Positions 8,587 through 64,000 of a stretch of DNA of 64,000 nt are shown here, one piece after another. The stretch is from contig NZ_CP053452.2 of the NCBI RefSeq assembly GCF_013128195.2, positions 3,348,001 through 3,412,000 of the forward strand. The letters are read 5' to 3'. Source of the DNA: Frigoriglobus tundricola. Its GTDB lineage: Bacteria; Planctomycetota; Planctomycetia; Gemmatales; Gemmataceae. The notes beneath the pieces are model-generated. The model was not told the origin of the DNA. It searched no databases and saw nothing but the letters and a program-made list of their open reading frames with translations. The position numbers were made by a program, and so were the translations under genes. Positions within the stretch are counted from its first letter, which is position 1. The number at the start of each line of letters is the position of its first letter.

Positions 8587-11058
8587 ATGCCTGAAACGAC
8601 GACGACCGCGTGCCCGCCCCAGGCCGACCTCGAGCGGCTGCTCAACGGGCGCTGCACCGAGGCCCGCAACGCGGCCCTGTGCGAGCACGTCGGCGCGTGC
8701 CCGGCGTGCCAGCAGCGCCTGGACCGGCTCGCCGGCTCGGGGTCCGACCTCGCCGAGCACCTGCGCGACGCCGACGCCGCGCCGGCGCCCAAGGACTCCG
8801 CGTACTGGCGGGCGATCGCGGACGCCGAGGACGAGCTGCGCAAGACGATCCTGTTCCCGCCCGGCGGCGAGTCGGACACGCCGCACCCGGAGGGCGACCT
8901 GAAGCTCGACTTCCTCCAGCCCGCGGACAAGCCCAACCGGCTCGGCAAGCTCGGGCCGTTCGACATCATCCGCGTCGTCGGCCGCGGCGGGATGGGCGTC
9001 GTGCTGCACGGCTACGACCCGTCGCTCGACCGCGACATCGCGATCAAGGTGATCGACCCGCAGCTCGCGAACAACGAGGTCGCGCGCCAGCGGTTCTGCC
9101 GCGAGGCCCGCGCCGCCGCCGCGGTCACGCACGACAACCTGGTCGCCGTCCACCAGGTGAACGAGGACGAGCCGTCCGGGCTGCCGTACCTGGTCATGCA
9201 GCTCATCAACGGCGAGTCGCTGGAACAGCGCCTCAAGCGGATCAGCAAGCTGAGCGTGCCGGAGGTCGCCCGGCTGGGGATGCAGGCCGCCGCCGGGCTG
9301 GCCGCGGCGCACGCCGGCGGGCTCATCCACCGCGACATCAAGCCCGGCAACATCCTGCTGGAAGCGCCCGCGGACCGCGTGAAGCTCACCGACTTCGGGC
9401 TGGCGCGGGCCGCGGAGGACGTGAAGCTCACCCGCACCGGGTTCGTCGCCGGGTCGCCGCTCTACATGGCCCCGGAACAGGCCCGCGGCGACGAGATCGA
9501 CCCGCGGTCGGACCTGTTCAGCCTCGGCAGCGTCCTTTACGAGGCGTCCACCGGCGTGGCCCCGTTCGAGGCGAAGACCCCGCTGGCGGTGCTGCGGCGC
9601 GTCTCGGACGAGACGCAGATGCCGCTCAGCCGCATCAACCCCGACGTGCCGAAGTGGCTCTCGGAGGCCGTGGACAAGCTGCTGTCGAAGGAGCCGGCGG
9701 GCCGGTACCAGACGGCGACGGAGGTGGCGGAGGTGTTCGCCTCCGGGCTGGTCGAGATGCACCTGCTCTCGCCGCTGGACGTGCCGGCGGAAGTGTGTTC
9801 CGCGTCGCGCACGGGCGTCCCGCGCACCCCCATCTGCTGGAAGACGGTCGGCGGCCGCGTGAAGCCGTGGGTCGGCGGAGCGGTCTTCGGCGGCCTCGTC
9901 GTCGGGCTGCTCTGGGCGCTGTTGGGACCGGGCACCCCGCCGACGCCCGAAACCCGCCCCGAGCAAGAACAACCCGCGGGGGCCGTTACGACGGGCGAGG
10001 AGCTGGCCAAAAAGCTCGAAGATCAAAAAACGACGGAGGTCGCGCTCGCGCCGGGAACGTTCGACCTCACCGCGTTTGTCGGCAAGCGCCCGGACCTCGT
10101 CGTGTCCACGCACGGCCCGACCCGGTTGATCCTGTCCGCCACCGACCCCGGCCCGAAGCCCCGCCTCACGCTGCCCGGCGAGTCCGGAACCGTGTGGGCG
10201 GTGTCGTTCCTGTCGAACGACCGGTTGGTGATGGGGATGGAGGACGGGTCCATCAAGATTTGGGACCTGGAGCACGGCGAAGCGATCCGGACCCTCGACC
10301 GGCAGGACGGTAACATCTGGACCGCCGACGTCTCGGCCGACGGCCAGTACCTGGTGACCGCGTCCGACGAGTCGTCGGTGACCTTCTGGAGCCTGAAGAG
10401 CTTCAAGCCCGAGTTCACGTTCCCGGAATCGAACTCGACCAAGGTCGCCAAGTTCAGCCCCGACGGTAAGCACCTCGCCACGGGCAACCGGAGCGGGATC
10501 GTGAAGGTGTGGGACTGGGCGAATCAGATCCCCTACGCCCAACTGCGCGGCCACCGCGGAACGGTCCACAGTCTGGCTTACAGTCCGGACGGCACCCGCC
10601 TCGCCAGCGCCGGCTCCGACCGGACGGTCAAGGTGTGGGACCTGAAGAAGGGCGTAGGCGCGTGGGAACTCGGGGAGGGGCCGGCCCCGTCGCTCGACAT
10701 GTCCCTGCACCGCGGGGCCGTGTACGCGGTCGCGTTCAGTCCGGACGGCAAGCGCCTCGTGAGCGCCGGGTGGGACGGCACCGTTCGCATCTGGGACGCG
10801 ATTACCGGTACCCAGCTCCTCCGGATCGCGGCGCACGATCAGGACGTGTGGTCCATCGCCTTCGGAGCGGGCGGCAAGTGGGTCGCCAGCGGCAGCTCCG
10901 ACGGCTCCGTAAAGGTGTGGGAAGTGGACACGGGCAAGGAGCTGTTCGCGTACCGCGGCACGCGGGCGTTCCACGTCGTCCGGTTCGCGCCCAACGGCAC
11001 CACGCTCGCCGCCGGCGGGCGCGACGGCACCGTAAAGGTGTGGGACCTCAAGAAGTAA
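8587..11058 (+). CDS. Membrane Ser/Thr protein kinase with WD40 propeller
   Basis: An 823-residue protein. Residues 25-45 hold an anti-sigma-like cluster (CEHVGACPACQ). The kinase domain spans about 124-395: GRGGMG at 132-137, K154 in IAIK, HRD at 248-250, DFG at 269-271, APE near 295. One membrane helix follows around 430-450 (GGAVFGGLVVGLLWALLG). The C-terminal part, probably extracytoplasmic, has WD40 repeats such as HRGTVHSLAYSPDGTRLASA and DRTVKVWDLKK; six or seven blades are visible. The propeller could sense or scaffold a partner. It is paired with the sigma factor at 7911. Start chosen at 8587 because earlier in-frame residues are unlike the family. Confidence 0.9.
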   Translation: MPETTTTACPPQADLERLLNGRCTEARNAALCEHVGACPACQQRLDRLAGSGSDLAEHLRDADAAPAPKDSAYWRAIADAEDELRKTILFPPGGESDTPHPEGDLKLDFLQPADKPNRLGKLGPFDIIRVVGRGGMGVVLHGYDPSLDRDIAIKVIDPQLANNEVARQRFCREARAAAAVTHDNLVAVHQVNEDEPSGLPYLVMQLINGESLEQRLKRISKLSVPEVARLGMQAAAGLAAAHAGGLIHRDIKPGNILLEAPADRVKLTDFGLARAAEDVKLTRTGFVAGSPLYMAPEQARGDEIDPRSDLFSLGSVLYEASTGVAPFEAKTPLAVLRRVSDETQMPLSRINPDVPKWLSEAVDKLLSKEPAGRYQTATEVAEVFASGLVEMHLLSPLDVPAEVCSASRTGVPRTPICWKTVGGRVKPWVGGAVFGGLVVGLLWALLGPGTPPTPETRPEQEQPAGAVTTGEELAKKLEDQKTTEVALAPGTFDLTAFVGKRPDLVVSTHGPTRLILSATDPGPKPRLTLPGESGTVWAVSFLSNDRLVMGMEDGSIKIWDLEHGEAIRTLDRQDGNIWTADVSADGQYLVTASDESSVTFWSLKSFKPEFTFPESNSTKVAKFSPDGKHLATGNRSGIVKVWDWANQIPYAQLRGHRGTVHSLAYSPDGTRLASAGSDRTVKVWDLKKGVGAWELGEGPAPSLDMSLHRGAVYAVAFSPDGKRLVSAGWDGTVRIWDAITGTQLLRIAAHDQDVWSIAFGAGGKWVASGSSDGSVKVWEVDTGKELFAYRGTRAFHVVRFAPNGTTLAAGGRDGTVKVWDLKK

Positions 11059-48033: not shown

Positions 48034-48073
48034 GCGCCCGTAGCTCAACTGGATAGAGTACCCGTCTTCTAAG
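48034..48073 (+). pseudogene. 5' half of a tRNA-Arg(UCU) gene
   Basis: gcgcccgtagctcaactgga gives the acceptor strand (GCGCCCG, 48034-48040), D-stem GCTC/GAGT, A60, the anticodon-stem strand CCCGT and loop CTTCTAA with anticodon TCT, then G73. The expected complementary anticodon stem does not follow; the next bases (atgcaatacg) are unrelated. The missing 3' half is at 57311-57357 and pairs with it. The cut is exactly at the anticodon loop. Confidence 0.88.
48061..48073. other. Left attachment-site core
   Basis: CCCGTCTTCTAAG matches CCCGCCTTCTAAG at 57311-57323 at 12 of 13 positions, in direct orientation 9250 bp apart, inside the tRNA anticodon arm. This is the typical crossover position of tyrosine integrases using tRNA genes. 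Confidence 0.7.
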
Positions 48074-56463: not shown

Positions 56464-57120
56464 GCCCCCGTAGCTCAACTGGATAGAGCAACGCCCTTCT
56501 AAGGCGTAGGTTGTGCGTTCAAGTCGCACCGGGGGTACTCTGACAGGCTGGAACACCCGCCTCGCGAACTCTGACCCGTCAGTGAACGCTCCACCGCCTG
56601 GAGGCGGTGGCTTCGAGTAACGGACTGGAAGTCCTGTTCCGACCGGAGGTCGGCTGAAGACCTTCGGCCCGATGGCCGGCTGAAGCGACTCGGCGCCTTC
56701 CACGCCGAACTCCGTGTCGCCCCCACGGCCTTGATTCTCGATGTGCTCCTTCACCACCTCATCGGTCACCTGGCCGCTGCTCCGACAGAAGTACCCCCGG
56801 GCCCACAGGTGCCGGCCCCACAACGGCTTGCGCAGGTGGGCGAACTCGCCCAACAACTTGTACGCCGTCCTCCCCTTGGGGCGCGGCACCCACCGGCTGA
56901 CGGCGAGTTGCGGTGGTATCGACACGAGCAGATGTACATGGTCCGCAGCTACGTGCCCACGGATGATCAGTACGTCGTGTGTCCCGCAGATCTCCCGGAT
57001 CAGATCACGGACACGGCCCCCCACCGCCCCGGCCAGCGCCGACTTTCCATACTTCGTTATCCACACCCGGTGCAGGTGGATGAAGAAGACCGAATGCGGG
57101 CCGTGGCGGTGGGAGTCCAT
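56392..57120 (-). CDS. tnpA: IS200/IS605-type HUH transposase TnpA, probably inactive
   Basis: The first 135 residues match Y1-type transposases: HRHGPHSVFFIHLHRVWITKYGK, HDVLIIRGHVAADHVHLLVSIPP with the HUH motif (HVH), and LWARGYFCRSSGQVTDEVVKEHIENQ. The last block should read EYIENQ, where Tyr is the nucleophile; here the codon is CAC (His) instead of TAC. The frame then runs on for over 100 arginine- and proline-rich residues, antisense to the tRNA, showing that the native stop is lost too. The 3' boundary is therefore artificial. Confidence 0.75.
   Translation of the reverse strand: MDSHRHGPHSVFFIHLHRVWITKYGKSALAGAVGGRVRDLIREICGTHDVLIIRGHVAADHVHLLVSIPPQLAVSRWVPRPKGRTAYKLLGEFAHLRKPLWGRHLWARGYFCRSSGQVTDEVVKEHIENQGRGGDTEFGVEGAESLQPAIGPKVFSRPPVGTGLPVRYSKPPPPGGGAFTDGSEFARRVFQPVRVPPVRLERTTYALEGRCSIQLSYGGRFLDLTERHGSVPRGSVAVSGPY
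56464..56537 (+). tRNA. tRNA-Arg (anticodon TCT)
   Basis: A complete 74-nt cloverleaf: acceptor GCCCCCG / CGGGGGT (one G-U), D-stem GCTC/GAGC, anticodon stem ACGCC/GGCGT with loop CTTCTAA (anticodon TCT), T-arm GTGCG/CGCAC with TTCAAGT. CCA is not encoded. It has the same specificity as the split tRNA at 48034/57311 and may compensate for its loss. Sequence differs in acceptor and stems, so it is not a simple copy. Confidence 0.95.
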
Positions 57121-57310: not shown

Positions 57311-57357
57311 CCCGCCTTCTAAGCGGGTGGTTTCGGGTTCGAGTCCCGACGGGCGTA
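57311..57357 (+). pseudogene. 3' half of a tRNA-Arg(UCU) gene
   Basis: Anticodon stem CCCGC/GCGGG around loop CTTCTAA (TCT), T-arm TCGGG-TTCGAGT-CCCGA and acceptor strand CGGGCGT with A57357. There is no D-arm upstream; the preceding bases are ttctcatttg. CGGGCGT pairs with GCGCCCG at 48034-48040 in all seven positions (one G-U). With that half it rebuilds a 74-nt tRNA. The core 57311-57323 is the right att site. Confidence 0.88.
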
Positions 57358-57476
57358 CTGAACACAAACCCTTTCTGCCGAAGCGTTTCACGCTATCCCC
57401 GGACGGTTCCGGGTGCGGCTTCCGAACGGTGCCATCTGTGGAATGATTCCACAGTTGGTGGCGAGGAACCCGCAAC

Positions 57477-58841
57477 GTGAGCAATCCGCGCAGAGTCACT
57501 CCGTCTTACCTGATCCACAAGCAATCCGGCCGTGCCCGTGCCGTCTGGACCGACCAGACCGGTACCCGACACCAACAGCTCCTCCCCGGCGCGTTCGAGA
57601 GCCCGGAGTCCCGCACCGCGTTCGCACGCCTCCAGCTCGAACTCGTCTCCGCGTCGCACCCGATCACCCAAGCCGCCCGGCGCGACGGTCTTACCGTGAA
57701 TGAAGTGCTGCTCGCGTTCATGAACTGGGCCGACACTCATTACCGCACCGCCGACGGCCATCCCACCACCGAGATCGGCGAACTCCAATGGTCGATCCGC
57801 GCCGTTCGCGAACTGTACGGCGACACACCCGCCGCCGAGTTCGGGCCGCGGGCACTCGCCGCCGTCCGCCAACACATGATCGGACGAAACTGGGCGCGGT
57901 CGCTCATCAACCACCGCATCGATCGCGTCAAGCGCGTCTTCAAATGGGCCACGTCCGAAGAACTGGTTCCGGTCACCGTATACCAAGCCCTCCGCACCCT
58001 GGCCGGGCTGCGGCGCGGTCGCACCGAGGCCCGCGAAGCGGAACCGGTGGGGCCGGTCGATCCCGCACACGTTGCCGCCACGCTGCCGCGCCTCACCGCG
58101 CACTTGCGGTGCATGGTCGAACTGCAACGGCTGACCGGGATGCGGCCCGGCGAAACGTGCAAGCTCCGGCTGTGCGAAATGGACCGCTCCGGCGAGGGAT
58201 GGGTGTACCGGCCGGCACAACACAAGACCGCCCACCACGGCAAGACACGAGCGATCCACTTCGGCCCGCGGGCACAGTCACTTGTTGTCGCGTTCCTGCG
58301 CGGGGAGAACCCGCCGCCCGAAGGGTTCGCCCACATCGATCCGAACTACCCCGACCAGAGCGCCGCGCGCCGTGTCATGGCCGACGCCTATGAGGAAGCC
58401 GGCCGCACGCGGGACGCCGAGTTGCTCCGCGACACGGCCCGTGTAGTCGCTCTGGTGGGCGGTTGCGTGGTCGATCCGGCCGCCACACTGTTCAGCCCGG
58501 CCCGCGCTCGTGAGGACCGGTTTCGCGCCGCCCGGCAGAAGCGCAAGAGCAAGGTGCAGCCCTCGCAGCTCAACCGCCAGAAGGCCCAGCCGAAGCGCCG
58601 GCCCGCGGCCTCGTACACGCCCCGCACCTACGCCCATGCTGTCCGGTTGGCAGCGAAGAAGGCACAGGTTCCACACTGGCACCCCAACCAGCTCCGGCAC
58701 CTGTTCGCGACCGAGGTGCGGAAGCAACACGGCCTGGAAGCCGCCCAGGTGCTTCTCGGCCACTCCCGCGCCGACGTGACCCAGGTCTACGCCGAACGCA
58801 ACGAGCAACTCGCCGCAACGGTCGCCGCCGAGATCGGCTAA
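57477..58841 (+). CDS. int: Tyrosine-type site-specific integrase
   Basis: A 454-residue phage-integrase-family recombinase. The SAM-like arm/core-binding region (VNEVLLAFMNWADTHY, DRVKRVFKWATSEELV) precedes the catalytic domain: R223 in LTGMRPGE, a Lys in HKTAHHGKTR, R407 in HWHPNQLRHLFATEVR, H429 in LLGHSRADVTQVY and Tyr438. The residue three before R407 is Asn404, where the family usually has His. It lies 119 bases after the tRNA 3' half, a classic position of an element integrating at that tRNA. Confidence 0.9.
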   Translation: MSNPRRVTPSYLIHKQSGRARAVWTDQTGTRHQQLLPGAFESPESRTAFARLQLELVSASHPITQAARRDGLTVNEVLLAFMNWADTHYRTADGHPTTEIGELQWSIRAVRELYGDTPAAEFGPRALAAVRQHMIGRNWARSLINHRIDRVKRVFKWATSEELVPVTVYQALRTLAGLRRGRTEAREAEPVGPVDPAHVAATLPRLTAHLRCMVELQRLTGMRPGETCKLRLCEMDRSGEGWVYRPAQHKTAHHGKTRAIHFGPRAQSLVVAFLRGENPPPEGFAHIDPNYPDQSAARRVMADAYEEAGRTRDAELLRDTARVVALVGGCVVDPAATLFSPARAREDRFRAARQKRKSKVQPSQLNRQKAQPKRRPAASYTPRTYAHAVRLAAKKAQVPHWHPNQLRHLFATEVRKQHGLEAAQVLLGHSRADVTQVYAERNEQLAATVAAEIG

Positions 58842-58965: not shown

Positions 58966-59343
58966 ATGGCCGAATCCGTTTCCGAAACCGTCACCGAACC
59001 CGGCGCGCGTGTCCTGTCCGAGATCCAAGCCGGTGACGGGCTGGCGCTGTCCGCGGCCGGACGCCTGTTCCCCGCCCACCGCGGCGAGGGCACCGTCGGA
59101 CCGTCCACCGTCTTCCGGTGGGTCACCAAGGGCGCCCGGTCCAACAGCGGACAACCGGTGAAGCTCGAAGCGGTCCGCGTGGGCGGGCGCTGGCTCACGT
59201 CCCGCGCCGCTGTCGCCCGGTTCGTCCACGCGCTCACCGATGCGGCCGCACCCGCTCCGGCCGCGCCGGCGCCCAGGACCCCGACCGCACGCCAGAAGGC
59301 CAGCGAGCGCGCCGGCCGAGAACTGGCCAAACGCGGCGCCTAA
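58966..59343 (+). CDS. DUF1580 protein (excisionase-like position)
   Basis: A 125-residue protein. LSEIQAGDGLALSAAGRLFPAHRGEGTVGPSTVFRWVTKGARSNSGQ is the DUF1580 core: a helix-turn-helix/MerR-like fold with the phrase STVFRWVTKG, then VKLEAVRVGGRWLTSRAAVARFV. The tail is Ala/Pro rich then basic. Common next to integrases in planctomycete elements; an excisionase or regulatory role is inferred from position and fold. Confidence 0.82.
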   Translation: MAESVSETVTEPGARVLSEIQAGDGLALSAAGRLFPAHRGEGTVGPSTVFRWVTKGARSNSGQPVKLEAVRVGGRWLTSRAAVARFVHALTDAAAPAPAAPAPRTPTARQKASERAGRELAKRGA

Positions 59344-59452
59344 CGGCCGTGAAGAGTGGGCCGTGAAATACAGACGGCTTTCTGCTTTCGGCCCACTCTT
59401 CACAGCCCACAACTCACCGCTCACAAGCTCCTACCACTCCACGGAGAACTTC

Positions 59453-61015
59453 ATGAATGTGCCCGCTCGTGCCGGACTGCCTGCGAACAGCCCCGCCGCC
59501 GATTCCGATGCGATCACCCTCGACCCGCCCCGGCCGGTGCCGGGAAAACCTGGCGTGTTCACGTTCGTGAGCCGCACCGACGAACCGCTGCACACCGACG
59601 AGTTCCGCCCGTCCGTCGCTTCGCGGGTCACCAAGTTCGTCCACGAAACCCTGCGGAAAGCGTATCCGGCGCTCAAGGAAGGTGAGTGGCCCGTGGGCGT
59701 GGCCGCGCGCCTGGAGAAGCAGTTCATTGCGTGGGCGATCTCACCGCCGGAGTCCCCGAAACAACCGTCCGGGTCATCCCCCGACGCCGCAGACCCCCGC
59801 GACGCGGCGCTCGACCGGATGCCCAAGGACATTTGCATCCTGGCCGAAGGGTATCTCGAAAACCCGATGATGATTGAGCGCATCAGCGCCGACATCCAAG
59901 ACGCGGGCGTGGTCGGCGAGAGGGAACTGGCGCTCGCCCTGTACCTCGTCGGCAGCAGCGCCCAACTGCCCGAACCGCTCGCCGCCGTCGTGCGCGGGCC
60001 GAGTTCCTCGGGCAAGTCGTTCCTCGTGGAAACGGTGGCGTCGTTCTTCCCGCCGGAGGTGACGCTGAAGGCCACCGACCTGAGCCCCAACGCGCTGTAC
60101 TACTTCCCGCCCGGCGAACTGCGGCACCGGTGGGTGGTCGCCGGCGAGCGCTCGCGGATGGAGAACGACGAGCGCGCCGAGGCCACTCGCGCGCTCCGGG
60201 AGATGATCTCGGCCGGGCGGCTGTCGAAGGCGGTCGCCGTCAAGGAGGCCGACACCATCGTCTCACGGCTGATCGTGCAGGAGGGGCCGATCGCGTTCGT
60301 GGAAACGACAACCCTTGAAGACATCTTCGCCGAGGATGCGAACCGGTGCCTGATCTTCAACACCGATGAGCGTGACGAGCAGACCCGCCGCATCCTGAGC
60401 GCCACCGCGAGTCGCGCCGCCGGTAAGGTCCAGAACCAGCCGGCACGCTGCCGCGCCATCCATTACGCGATTCAGCGCATGCTCCCGCGAACCAACGTGG
60501 TGATCCCGTTCGCCCCCGACCTGGCCGCGCTGCTGCCGGCCAGCCGTGTGGAGGAGCGGCGCGACTTGTCGAAGGTGCTGCGGTTCATCCGCGCCTCCGC
60601 GCTTCTCCATCACCGCCGCCGAGAAGAGGACATCGACGGGCACGTTGTCGCCACGCTGGCCGATTATCAGCTCGCGCTGCGGTTGGCGGCGTGCGGTCTG
60701 GACGCGGCCCGGAGCGGGCTGAGCGATCCGGCGCGGCGCTGCTTCGAGGTGCTGTGCGACCGGTTCGGCCGGAACGAGTTCGATTCCATCGCGGCCGAGA
60801 CCGCTGCGGCGAAGTCGCGCTCGTCGGTGCGGGCGTGGCTCTCGGCGCTGGCTCAGCGTGGGTTCGTGGAACAGACCGAGCTGAACAAGGGGCCGAACCC
60901 GGCCCGGTGGCGGCTCACCGGCCAGGAGCCGGAATCGGCAGCGAGCTACCTTCCGCCGGTGGAAAAAGTGAAGGACAAGTACCTCTCCCGGAAAGGCTCG
61001 GACACAAAGAGCTAA
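59453..61015 (+). CDS. P-loop ATPase, primase/helicase-like, of the integrative element
   Basis: A 520-residue protein. Walker A is at 182-190 (RGPSSSGKSFLVETV), followed by LSPNALYYFPPGELRHRWVVAGERSRMENDE and ETTTLEDIFAEDANRCLIFNTDERDEQTRRIL with an arginine-finger-like segment. The C-terminus is helical and ends in a winged-helix-like part (RSSVRAWLSALAQRGFVEQTEL). The layout resembles replication initiation ATPases of mobile elements; no primase domain is visible. ATG at 59453. Confidence 0.72.
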   Translation: MNVPARAGLPANSPAADSDAITLDPPRPVPGKPGVFTFVSRTDEPLHTDEFRPSVASRVTKFVHETLRKAYPALKEGEWPVGVAARLEKQFIAWAISPPESPKQPSGSSPDAADPRDAALDRMPKDICILAEGYLENPMMIERISADIQDAGVVGERELALALYLVGSSAQLPEPLAAVVRGPSSSGKSFLVETVASFFPPEVTLKATDLSPNALYYFPPGELRHRWVVAGERSRMENDERAEATRALREMISAGRLSKAVAVKEADTIVSRLIVQEGPIAFVETTTLEDIFAEDANRCLIFNTDERDEQTRRILSATASRAAGKVQNQPARCRAIHYAIQRMLPRTNVVIPFAPDLAALLPASRVEERRDLSKVLRFIRASALLHHRRREEDIDGHVVATLADYQLALRLAACGLDAARSGLSDPARRCFEVLCDRFGRNEFDSIAAETAAAKSRSSVRAWLSALAQRGFVEQTELNKGPNPARWRLTGQEPESAASYLPPVEKVKDKYLSRKGSDTKS

Positions 61016-61041
61016 CACGTTGACCTGATTCGATTTGAAGT

Positions 61042-61092
61042 GTCCAACACCCGTTTTGGACGCTTTATCTGCAATGGAGCTAACGAGTTAGC
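61042..61092. promoter_or_regulatory. Two palindromes upstream of the zinc-ribbon gene
   Basis: gtccaacacccgttttggac (61042-61061; six-base arms) and gctaacgagttagc (61079-61092; six-base arms). The second lies 31 bases before the next start codon, an operator-like position. Both are the only dyads in the gap between the ATPase and zinc-ribbon genes. Confidence 0.4.
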
Positions 61093-61122
61093 ACCTTGTG
61101 TCCAAGCAATTCCGGGGAGAGC

Positions 61123-61392
61123 ATGTCCACACACTCCGCTGCCATTCTGGCTCTCATGGACCTCTCGTTCCTTGACGACCCGGACGACGATCCGACCCCC
61201 GCTCCTGCCCCGCCCGTCTCGGCCGTGAAGGAGCGAAAGACTGGTGCCGAGTGCCCAGAGTGTGCGTGGCCACTGGATCGGGGGCGTTGCTGGTCGTGTC
61301 ACTGGCGGCTGTGCGCGGTGTGCCGGACGCAGAAGACCGGCTCGGCGTTCATGGCGGTCTGCTTGTGCTGTGGCCTGGTCGAGTGCGAATAA
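61123..61392 (+). CDS. Small zinc-ribbon protein
   Basis: An 89-residue protein. The N-terminal third is acidic and proline rich (LDDPDDDPTPAPAPP). Two CxxC pairs (CPEC, CWSC) and then CAVC and CLCC near the end form two zinc ribbons or one treble-clef site. The start codon has ggggaga six bases upstream. No family recognised. Likely DNA- or protein-binding accessory protein of the element. Confidence 0.72.
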   Translation: MSTHSAAILALMDLSFLDDPDDDPTPAPAPPVSAVKERKTGAECPECAWPLDRGRCWSCHWRLCAVCRTQKTGSAFMAVCLCCGLVECE

Positions 61393-61474
61393 CGCGGGTC
61401 GAGTGCCATCGGTCGGGTAGCCTTCGTCCTGGTCGGCCCGCAGGGACCAAGACGGCCAAGGGGAGTGACAGGTT

Positions 61475-61870
61475 ATGGCAGAAAATGAGAGGATCGGGCG
61501 CGGTCAGGGCAGCGAGGTTCTCGCGGCCGAACTCGCGAGCGGTGCGACGGTTGCTCAGGCTGCATCCAAGGCGGGGGTGAGCGAGGCGACTGCGTACAGG
61601 CGGCTCCGAGACCCGGAGTTCGTGGCCCAAGTGCGTGAACTCCGAAGCCTTGCAGTGCGATCCGCAGCGGGCCGGCTGGCCGTCGCGATGTCGAAGGCGG
61701 CTGGTGTACTGGAAGCGCTCCTCACCAGTGAGACCGAGACGACCCGCCTGCGCGCGGCTGACCGGTTGCTCGACCACGCGGTGAAGACGGCCGAGGTTCT
61801 GGAACTGGAGCAGCGCGTCGAGGAGTTGGAGCGCATGGCCGCCATTCAACGCGACGAAAAGAGGCGATGA
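61475..61870 (+). CDS. Helix-turn-helix protein with coiled-coil C-terminus
   Basis: A 131-residue protein. LAAELASGATVAQAASKAGVSEATAYRRLRDPEFVAQV is a clear helix-turn-helix (terminase-small-subunit or resolvase-like), followed by a long helix ending ELEQRVEELERMAAIQRDEKRR. It may regulate the element or act as a small terminase-like protein; no partner large subunit is visible. The next gene starts two bases after its stop codon. Confidence 0.72.
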   Translation: MAENERIGRGQGSEVLAAELASGATVAQAASKAGVSEATAYRRLRDPEFVAQVRELRSLAVRSAAGRLAVAMSKAAGVLEALLTSETETTRLRAADRLLDHAVKTAEVLELEQRVEELERMAAIQRDEKRR

Positions 61871-61871
61871 C

Positions 61872-62201
61872 GTGAACCGGAACCGGTTGGCGAAACTGAA
61901 ACAGACGCTCGCAGCCGCACCGTGTCCGCGCTGCCAACAATGGGCCGCACCCGCTCGGCCCTGGATGCCCGCTGAGCGCGCTGCGTGGGACGCCCTCACC
62001 GACACCGAGCGGGCCGAAATCTGCGCGCTGATGGCACAGATGTCGGACCGGTGCGCCGCGTGCGAGCGGGTGAGCTTCGATCTGAGCAAGAGCAGCGATG
62101 AGGAGAAACGCCGGGCGCTCGTGCTGCTCCGACGCGTGTTCGTGACGCACTTCGGTGGTCCCGCCTCTCTACCACACCCATCCGTCGAAGACACCTTCTA
62201 G
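61872..62201 (+). CDS. Hypothetical protein with CxxC pairs
   Basis: A 109-residue protein, GTG start directly after the upstream stop. CPRCQQWA near residue 18 and DRCAACERV near residue 60 supply two CxxC pairs that could bind one zinc. The centre is helical (ERAAWDALTDTERAEICALMAQMS). No family recognised. Appears to be in one operon with the helix-turn-helix gene. Confidence 0.68.
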   Translation: MNRNRLAKLKQTLAAAPCPRCQQWAAPARPWMPAERAAWDALTDTERAEICALMAQMSDRCAACERVSFDLSKSSDEEKRRALVLLRRVFVTHFGGPASLPHPSVEDTF

Positions 62202-62777
62202 CGCAAGTTCTCCACTTTGCAGGGGGCTCCGCCCCCCGCACCCCCCGAAGACAAAAGCACTCCGTTGCATCGGCCTGACGAAGTGGCGTCTCAAAAGCGA
62301 GCCGGTGATCAGAGCGGAAAGTGCGGGGCGCCGGCAGTGATGGCCGGTGCCGAAAGGCACGGTGCGGCCGTTCGCTCCGCTTCGGCCCCAAAGTTCATTA
62401 TAGCTCGCATTCGCTCGCTGACATGAACTTTGGGGGCCTCCGCTGCGCTCACCACGTGGGGCCAAAACTCGACGCATCGCACGGCCTTGCGGCCGGCTCT
62501 TGGACGGGGTGGGGTTCGGGGTTGGCGAGAAGGGTGGTGTGGAGTTCTTCGCCGGCAGGAGGCCGGCGCGTGTTCGCGGCCGGATGCCGCGCCAGTCGCT
62601 AGGGAGACTGAGCTTTGTCTTGCAAAGCAAGCGGCACGAAAACGCTGGAAAAACAAGCATTTTCCGCTTGCGCGAGGCACCAAACCTGGTAAAATGTACA
62701 CCGGTGATGAAACGATGCCGCCGCAGTGCGCCAACACTGCGGCGGCGGCCAAACCCCTGATTGACGCAGGAGCAGGC

Positions 62778-63035
62778 ATGAACACTTTAACAGCAGGCGC
62801 CGCACGCGCCAAGACAGGCCGCGCACCGGGCCAAGCCCGGACCATTCAGCGGACCTACGAACAGCTCATTCGCGGAGCCCGGCCGCGCCGGGTGTTCTTC
62901 TTCAGCACGGAACTGAGCCGCTGCCTGCCGCTGCCGAAGAGGATGGCCCTTCGGCTGGTGCGGCAAGGACATCAGGGGCTGACGGTGCGGGCGGCCGAAC
63001 ACGGCTGCGTGTTCCTTTCCTTCCTGCCCGAGTAA
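62778..63035 (+). CDS. Small basic hypothetical protein
   Basis: An 85-residue ORF with a ribosome binding site (aggagc eight bases upstream). MNTLTAGAARAKTGRAPGQA is basic; RVFFFSTELSRCLPLPKRMALRLVRQGHQGLTVRAAEHGCVFLSFLPE follows and looks like a small folded unit. No family is recognised. It is framed by inverted repeats, so it may be a passenger or part of the repeat element. Confidence 0.55.
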   Translation: MNTLTAGAARAKTGRAPGQARTIQRTYEQLIRGARPRRVFFFSTELSRCLPLPKRMALRLVRQGHQGLTVRAAEHGCVFLSFLPE

Positions 63036-63340
63036 CCACACCAGAACCAGCACAGCGGCTCGGCCGGCAGGACGCCGGCCCTGCTGCCGGCACGACGACA
63101 GCCCGGAGCGAGGGGACACGGCTTGCCGGACCCCCGCAGCGGCCTGGGACGCCAAGGCCGCGGCATCCGGCCGCGAAGACACGCCGGCCTCCTGCCGGCG
63201 GACCCGCAACCGGTACCGCGCCAGAGCCCACAGCACCCCCACCGCCTTTCTCTTCTCTTCCCACACCCCTCTCAACACTGAGCGAGCGCAGCGCAGGCCC
63301 CCCGAAGGCGAACAAACCGGCTGTCAAGGGCCGGGCCGGC

Positions 63341-63380
63341 TTTGCGGCCCGGAGCGAGGCTTTGCGGCCCGGAGCGAGGC
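63341..63380. repeat. Tandem duplication of a 20-bp unit within a hairpin
   Basis: tttgcggcccggagcgaggc occurs twice in succession, with a third partial copy (tttgcgagcgg) after it. The flanking ggctgtcaaggg (about 63319-63330) and cccttgacagcc (63392-63403) are complementary, so the tandem units lie in a hairpin loop. Confidence 0.6.
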
Positions 63381-63666
63381 TTTGCGAGCGGTCCCTTGAC
63401 AGCCGAGTTAGTTTGGAGCCGAGGGGGCCGAAGCGGAGCGAGCCACCGCAACGTGACCGGAGAGCGTATGCGCCCGGATCAGCGACGGAGACGGCACTTC
63501 GTCAGGCCGATGCAAGTGAAATGCCTTCTGTCTTCGGGGGTGCGGGGGGCGGAGCCCCATGCAGAGCGAATGCAACACTGCGAGCCTTGCCGCGACGAAA
63601 CGACCACTGTAGAAGTGGGACGATAGTGACGACTCAGGGCGTAAGATTCCTTACTGGGAGGCACCG

Positions 63667-64000
63667 ATGAAACAGTATCTTGATCTACTACGCGCCATCC
63701 GCATCAATGGCGTTTGGAAAGAGCAGCGAGCCGTCCGGGCAGACGGAAGCCGCCTCAAATGCCAGAGCCTTTTCGGCGCACAGTGTCGGTACGACCTGAA
63801 AGATGGTTTCCCGCTCGTCACGACAAAGCGGATGCCGTTCCGCGCCGTCGCGGTCGAACTGCTCTGGTTTCTGACTGGTTCAACTAACAACAATGCCCTT
63901 AAAGCTCAAGGCGTCTCGATCTGGGACGAATGGGCCGATCCCGAAACGGGTGACCTCGGACCGATCTACGGAAAGCAGTGGCGTCGGTGGGAAGGCCCGA
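63667..64000 (+). CDS. thyA: Thymidylate synthase ThyA (cut by window end)
   Basis: Converts dUMP to dTMP using methylene-tetrahydrofolate. The visible 111 codons read [66 protein letters not shown] approximately, [24 protein letters not shown]: the canonical N-terminal blocks of ThyA, including the dUMP-phosphate arginine region. Cysteine nucleophile lies beyond the window. Ribosome binding site gggagg before the ATG. Its AT-richer codon use differs from the surrounding genes. Confidence 0.93.

Follow-up and report, generated by a model that had tools for sequence, protein, structure and literature searches.

The structure at positions 62206-63570 of the window (the whole stretch of 64,000 nucleotides analysed here, which lies in the 9.86-Mb genome of Frigoriglobus tundricola) has, in our judgement, about an even chance of being an accessory module of tRNA-targeting integrative elements, in which a leader-controlled small gene is set in a long inverted duplication and forms an exchangeable payload. 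The payload gene would encode a fast-changing protein of 79-89 amino acids (aa) in the loop of the duplication. The module would be spread by its host elements and also by homologous recombination in its arms, which would swap the payload. The arms would stay complementary at the DNA level, partly by one arm being copied from the other, and would not serve as a switch. As the leader is common to other mobile-element genes, the payload gene probably acts early in the element or in its establishment, which is the weakest step of the proposal. Among the points against this explanation are that the genes linked to the leader are of mixed function and that the full copies number three and have differing outer ends.

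Architecture of the fold-back and its gene

An earlier note on this DNA had described nested inverted repeats around a small open reading frame (ORF), and both are real and lie where it placed them. The whole structure is a single long imperfect inverted duplication of about 1.35 kb (window features are on the plus strand unless stated otherwise). Its outer arms, delimited by inverted-repeat search and gapped alignment, span 62215-62292 on the left and 63488-63566 on the right and contain two paired blocks, 62215-62245/63536-63566 (31 nt, 94%) and 62265-62292/63488-63515 (28 nt, 96%), which joined with gaps give 80 columns at 87.5%. The inner repeat pair (left arm 62550-62591, right arm 63159-63200) is 42 nt long and 95% complementary. 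Between outer and inner arms fall two further nested pairs, namely 62358-62389/63424-63455 (32 nt, 88%), which forms the left and right arms of the basal stem (helix 2 of the consensus fold), and 62432-62450/63284-63302 (19 nt, 95%). The right outer arm is close to the start of thyA, as had been noticed before; since the ATG of thyA is at 63667, the arm ends about 100 nt upstream of it.

Three full copies, counted from basal stem to basal stem, are available, i.e., those of the window, of locus L022 in the same genome and of locus L023 in genome G013 of the same genus. Their consensus fold is a single rod with one side hairpin per arm, a predicted shape that is read as a four-way junction. The left side hairpin (62386-62435; repeat search and consensus fold) carries on its minus strand, at 62397-62424, a sigma-70-like match ATGTCA-16-TATAAT, for which a consensus scan reported no equivalent in the G013 copy. 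The right side hairpin, GAAGGCGAACAAAC...GTTAGTTTGGAGCC (63303-63423; copy alignment and consensus fold), is among the best-conserved parts of the module, and a 20-bp exact tandem duplication within it (63338-63377) is absent from the three other aligned copies. A C/T-rich, G-poor tract of the right arm (63234-63276) is near-invariant in three copies and recognisable in a fourth; such a C-rich and G-poor tract would presumably suit Rho-dependent termination.

The payload ORF (62778-63035, 85 aa; 79 aa in L022 and 89 aa in L023), characterised by alignment, profile and codon composition, looks like a real gene at the level of sequence because its leader hairpin covaries, a ribosome-binding site precedes it, its codons are gene-like and distant relatives lie near integrases. 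GC by codon position is 0.67/0.55/0.77 in the window and alike in the other two copies, and identity is highest at codon position 2 in all three pairs of ORFs. Promoter-like boxes TTGCGC-16-TAAAAT were read from the sequence at 62668-62695, and their counterpart in G013 is TTGATT-18-TATAAT; a promoter consensus scan reported the G013 boxes and not those of the window. Then follow leader hairpin 1 (62717-62746), recognised as a repeat pair and by covariation in 16 sequences, and a mini-hairpin CCTG/CAGG over the ribosome-binding site AGGAG (62756-62772; leader alignment and folds).

The payload proteins of L022 and L023 are 41% identical, those of the window and L022 29%, and those of the window and L023 20%. 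With the window protein alone as query, the sole match in 59 genomes was the protein itself. The earlier note had proposed a search for homologues, and a profile of the three ORFs did find relatives in one more genome, the Gemmataceae MAG palsa_1347, with 5 and 7 matches in two profile searches, fragments and one weak match included. Three of these are full length, each divergent from a small ORF that we take to encode a ribbon-helix-helix protein (the one tested had no Pfam match), and a complete integrase-like gene follows at two of the three (one tested, 6e-15). No long-range inverted repeats were found around these three. At L069, L084, L086 and L097 of this MAG, whole or 3' parts of a payload relative lie tail to tail with neighbour genes, which presumably encode FGE-sulfatase proteins with diversity-generating-retroelement-like ends. 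Among the profile matches at E 1e-4 to 0.1, L068, L083 and L088 were taken as chance. The payload protein gave no meaningful match in Pfam, NCBIfam, PHROGs or PADLOC, and viral contigs held no relative of it. An AlphaFold model of the L022 protein (pLDDT 77.5, pTM 0.62) predicts two helices followed by strands-helix-strands. A fold search with this model gave no PDB match at E <= 0.001, where absence from the match list proves nothing; the best VIA-align match had a Z of 5.2 (63 residues, rmsd 2.9), with the following ones at Z <=4.2, and the best E against viral models was 0.011. A PDB sequence search with the payload protein gave four matches up to E 1, the best at 0.091.

Host elements, other copies and mobility

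The structure lies within an integrative element, as the earlier note had it, which is bounded by a 48-bp exact att repeat and carries a tyrosine integrase. In window numbering the element covers 12.5 kb (57313-69799), with attL at 57313-57360 and the identical attR beyond the window at 69752-69799. The repeat corresponds to the 3' part of a tRNA, with TCT at the anticodon place by reading. An intact tRNA-Arg(TCT) (56464-56538) sits 0.8 kb before this att copy; the matching part is only 73% alike, and the att copy therefore seems to have its source in a different tRNA gene. Upstream, at 48034-48073, there is a further, partial tRNA. The backbone starts with the integrase gene (57477-58841; Pfam Phage_integrase 1.9e-16), followed by genes for a DUF1580 protein (58966-59343; Pfam 2.7e-8), an AAA-type ATPase (59417-61015; AAA_16 at 7e-4, which is below the cut-off, and a 73% homologue in G013), a helix-turn-helix (HTH) protein with a weak resemblance to the small terminase subunits of phages (61475-61870; phrog_2538 3.9e-7) and, directly upstream of the module, a 109-aa protein (61872-62201) with a positional counterpart in G013. 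For the G013 homologue of the HTH protein, a sigma-factor family matches slightly better. Phage satellites have integrase, replication and packaging genes and depend on a helper; in the window element an integrase and an AAA protein are present, together with an HTH protein weakly resembling small terminases, and the element may or may not be such a satellite. The cargo starts after the module with an ORF at 63667-64000 that runs past the window end and is putatively thyA, as the earlier note named it; further on come DHFR (1.9e-46), a SIR2 protein that PADLOC places near Thoeris ThsA (1e-65) and a ThiC-like protein.

All three full copies sit in tRNA-targeted integrative elements, which are of two backbone types. 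The L022 copy (6227174-6228396) lies in an element bounded on one side by an intact tRNA-SeC (6239723-6239817) and on the other by 42 bp that repeat the 5' half of this tRNA (6226993-6227034); the half-tRNA also matches the tRNA-SeC of relatives. This element encodes an integrase, Prim-Pol and PolA, and its module is 140 nt from one att end, so that both backbone and module position differ from those of the window element. The element that holds the L023 copy sits at tRNA-His; its att repeat measures 46 nt, and its cargo is a patatin gene. Its integrase was assigned by homology to the window element, and its backbone is 71-77% identical to that of the window at the nucleotide level in three main matches, with a fourth (177 nt) at 68%. 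A further locus in the window genome, L024, holds the right end of the module only; a tRNA-SeC called there by ARAGORN was rejected, as a long open frame covers it and its alignment with the half-tRNA of L022 is poor.

Beyond these loci the module is rare. The earlier note had considered that the arms might occur alone throughout the genome as ordinary intergenic repeats, and this is not the case, as the outer-arm core (23 nt, <=3 mismatches) occurs three times in the 9.86-Mb genome, always within two module copies. Among 95 genomes of the family a DNA search gave matches in five, with real copies in two (the own genome and G013); the short matches in the other three (24-37 nt) were judged by context to be chance, as were the weak matches L014, L015, L016, L028 and L029. 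A right-arm model searched against 392 genomes of the phylum matched in the own genome only, and its fourth match is the left arm read backwards. An exact pattern scan of genome contigs returned no further shell copies, a scan that may miss real ones because the G013 copy itself was not returned. Exact pattern scans of viral contigs returned neither a shell copy nor a leader, and the plasmids and phages searched held no copy. At the level of titles, a literature search found no account of such a module.

That one genome carries the module in two elements of different build would also be expected if it were a non-autonomous transposon whose long terminal inverted repeats are nested and which, served by a transposase in trans, jumped between integrative elements. 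Reading of the ends gave a motif, GAAAGNCACGGTGCGG, that flanks L022 left and right and recurs in part at the other copies, which fits such an element. MITEs and fold-back elements likewise consist of a short sequence between long terminal repeats in inverted orientation. However, no target-site duplication was obvious by reading at the module ends, which differ among copies (a facing pair of outer arms is seen in the window copy only, L022 having the left one and L023 neither in recognisable form), and the genome holds two full copies and one fragment rather than many dispersed ones. Unlike a MITE, the module also carries a gene with a structured leader. In addition, the module occupies the same backbone place in G013 and the window, and its matches between the two (75-82%) are about as diverged as the backbone. 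We therefore regard transposition of this kind as unlikely. A search for an empty site returned none.

The earlier note had suggested a small mobile or invertible cassette. The description as a gene module within an integrative element is supported, and the module recurs in other elements, though it may move only along with them; inversion found no support, and a phase-variable cassette is in our view extremely improbable. Inverted repeats do flank the ORF, as in Hin/Gin invertible segments and phase-variable promoters, and in the tRNA-SeC element, which has a different backbone, the ORF points towards int and opposite to it in direction, unlike in the window and G013, where ORF and int read the same way. 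In contrast to Hin/Gin segments, however, the arms are long and imperfect and no recombinase was recognised in the module, whose ORF gave no match; the sole recombinase found is the element's own integrase, about 4 kb upstream. Moreover, in all three full copies the ORF starts on the side of the left side hairpin and ends on that of the right one, so that its direction relative to the arms is fixed among them.

Probable payload exchange and the nature of the arms

In the preferred reading of an accessory module with an exchangeable payload, the arms and the gene may have had separate histories, and their degrees of relatedness do conflict. Between the window and L022, with gaps counted, the left arm with the leader is 88% identical (446 columns), the right arm 80% (422) and the ORF only 46% (263). 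By arms the window and L022 are the closer pair, by proteins L022 and L023. In arms and leader, 128 columns are shared by the window and L022 only and 21 by L022 and L023 only, whereas for the ORF these counts are 41 and 55 (Fisher p 2e-12, with columns treated as independent); for protein columns the ratio is 8 to 17 (p 7e-8 against the arms), and the preference within the protein columns alone is not significant (binomial p 0.11). Because arms and ORFs disagree on relatedness, the payload has, on this comparison of sequences, probably been exchanged between elements. The conflict would be explained most simply by a trade of the payload, or of the arms, between elements; alternatively, the window ORF could have evolved very fast, and its poor alignment alone reduces the number of window-L022 matches.

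The divergence between species also bears on whether the structure is an inert relic, i.e., an old inverted duplication beside a gene that was kept by chance. This would agree with the left arm of L023 having parted from the other left arms, with the lack of a right outer arm in L022, and with a right arm that over its whole length, gaps counted, is only 64-65% identical between species. Against it, stretches of the right arm including the side hairpin are 80-93% identical between species, compared with 33-48% for the ORF, and we consider a relic improbable.

The folding potential of the module is high. The window fold-back has an MFE of -808.1 kcal/mol (1366 nt), against a mean of -628.8 (sd 16.1) for 15 dinucleotide shuffles. 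With RNA parameters and 15 shuffles each, z is -11.1 for the window, -9.1 for L022 and -13.1 for L023, compared with -0.6 and +1.2 for two control stretches of the same element. Pairing is kept in 93.6% of 674 cells in the three full copies, and two-sided changes in the arms number 22, against 10.3 in shuffled and 1-6 in slid alignments, in a self-favouring test (three sequences and a fold made from them). Such values could point to a large structured RNA with an embedded ORF, a reading to which we give little credence. Neither strand folds much better than the other. Mismatches of the G-U and A-C kinds number 16/15, 17/14 and 17/18 in the union of the pairs predicted for both strands, and 2/1, 2/2 and 4/8 in pairs common to both folds; since the two kinds are about equally frequent, no strand shows RNA-type selection. 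Two-sided changes may also arise by other means. In the arm block compared, right arms are 81% identical between species and left arms 55-56%; over the whole arms, gaps counted and with the leader included on the left, the contrast shrinks to 64-65% against 57-58%. The left block of L023, set against its own right block in reverse complement, has an identity of 0.74, compared with 0.55-0.56 to the other left blocks. The left arm of L023 thus looks like a copy of its right arm, not of other left arms, going by these identities, and arm-to-arm copying could therefore create paired changes without selection. Rfam gave no match up to E 1 within 61000-64000, and a group II intron and known RNA families were dropped on this result.

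The conserved fold-back, read as a four-way junction, and the absence of strand bias in the mismatches would also suit a DNA site (replication origin, transfer or packaging) that acts as a cruciform or single-stranded fold with a gene lodged in its loop, and in the window and G013 the module does follow the AAA gene and the gene weakly like small terminases. Nevertheless, the module is missing from all seven AAA-type loci of other elements that were scanned, with a scan that detected the module-bearing loci (an eighth locus, L054, was outside it as its sequence ends shortly after the AAA gene). No relaxase was found among the proteins tested, by a search that is not relaxase-specific, and none of four proteins of the tRNA-SeC element gave a terminase-like match. 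To our knowledge, origin, transfer and packaging sites are all far smaller than the module. A role as such a site appears distinctly unlikely.

Long palindromes (97-180 nt, 71-93%) were seen at or shortly after the AAA gene in the window (60983-61121) and at five of the seven other AAA-type loci (on the strand of the AAA gene L055 4923-5019, L056 2235-2413, L058 5160-5260, L059 5368-5545 and L061 5068-5180); none was reported for G013. These palindromes could be strong terminators or replication sites.

The leader-hairpin family and related systems

The leader is a lead of its own. Just before the start codon, the payload genes of Gemmata and the MAG have in common a hairpin and another small helix, which covers the ribosome-binding site. 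Of 95 family genomes, 20 contained matches to a model of this leader at E <= 0.05; 18 matches in eight genomes were below 1e-5, six of these matches being the sequences used to build the model. Ten of the 12 new leaders were read, and eight precede a gene for a 113-169-aa protein with a CxC...CxH end, presumably SWIM-like; Pfam SWIM gave no match for three of these eight, and 0.011 (below the cut-off) for L113, a weaker relative. As for the other two, one starts alike and then departs and one has a different frame of 364 aa. An eleventh new leader, L155, precedes the same kind of protein (115 aa, no Pfam match). All ten pairs of the leader stem have two-sided changes in 16 sequences (the six model builders, nine of the ten read and L113; L128, identical to L109, was left out, as were other weak matches and two without a locus), and such changes were counted in 35 cells, compared with 10.1 in shuffled and 6-16 in slid alignments. 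Members of the family are found at L107, L108, L109, L110, L127, L132, L133, L175 and L166 and in the window at 62717-62772, where Rfam gave no leader match. Some leader loci neighbour a serine recombinase (Pfam), and some, by reading only, integrase-like or phage-like genes. A third leader in the own genome precedes the gene of a GP88 protein (5e-40). A wider search matched eight other genomes, and one of four loci read was convincing, in a genome of another family, where the leader precedes an ArdcN protein (9e-5, just above the cut-off); the other three look like chance hairpins.

As to known systems, moron-like cargo modules of tRNA-targeting elements and phage satellites resemble the present module in having their own promoter-like boxes and a small gene, in adjoining cargo and in varying between otherwise related elements. 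Unlike them, this module is surrounded by an inverted duplication of 1.35 kb, a shell whose conservation exceeds that of the gene. Frpo/ssi sequences are described (PMC11541004; PMC9849209) as single-stranded DNA promoters of plasmid leading regions, and on that description they resemble the module in that a fold-back formed at the DNA level lies in a mobile element, close to small genes of the establishment type, with one leader relative here preceding an ArdC-like gene. In promoters of the Frpo type a hairpin stem rebuilds the -35 and -10 boxes, whereas the -10 box of the module is not in a stem of the predicted DNA folds (it is looped or unpaired in all three, except for its first base in the window), and no transfer origin or relaxase was recognised here by a search that is not specific for them. 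It is tempting to speculate that the arms snap together on single-stranded DNA as the element enters a cell or replicates, that the resulting duplex patch allows immediate expression of the payload as an establishment or anti-defence factor, and that the arms also let elements trade such factors; this we hold to be very improbable.

If the accessory-module reading is true, integrative elements of Planctomycetes have a common exchangeable gene slot in which the non-coding shell outlasts the gene, the leader-hairpin family marks mobile-element genes, and the leader offers a handle on fast-changing small proteins missed by protein searches. As regards the cargo, a ThsA-like SIR2 gene at L025 (8503-9894) adjoins a ThiC-family gene (9891-11009), in the cargo of the window element.
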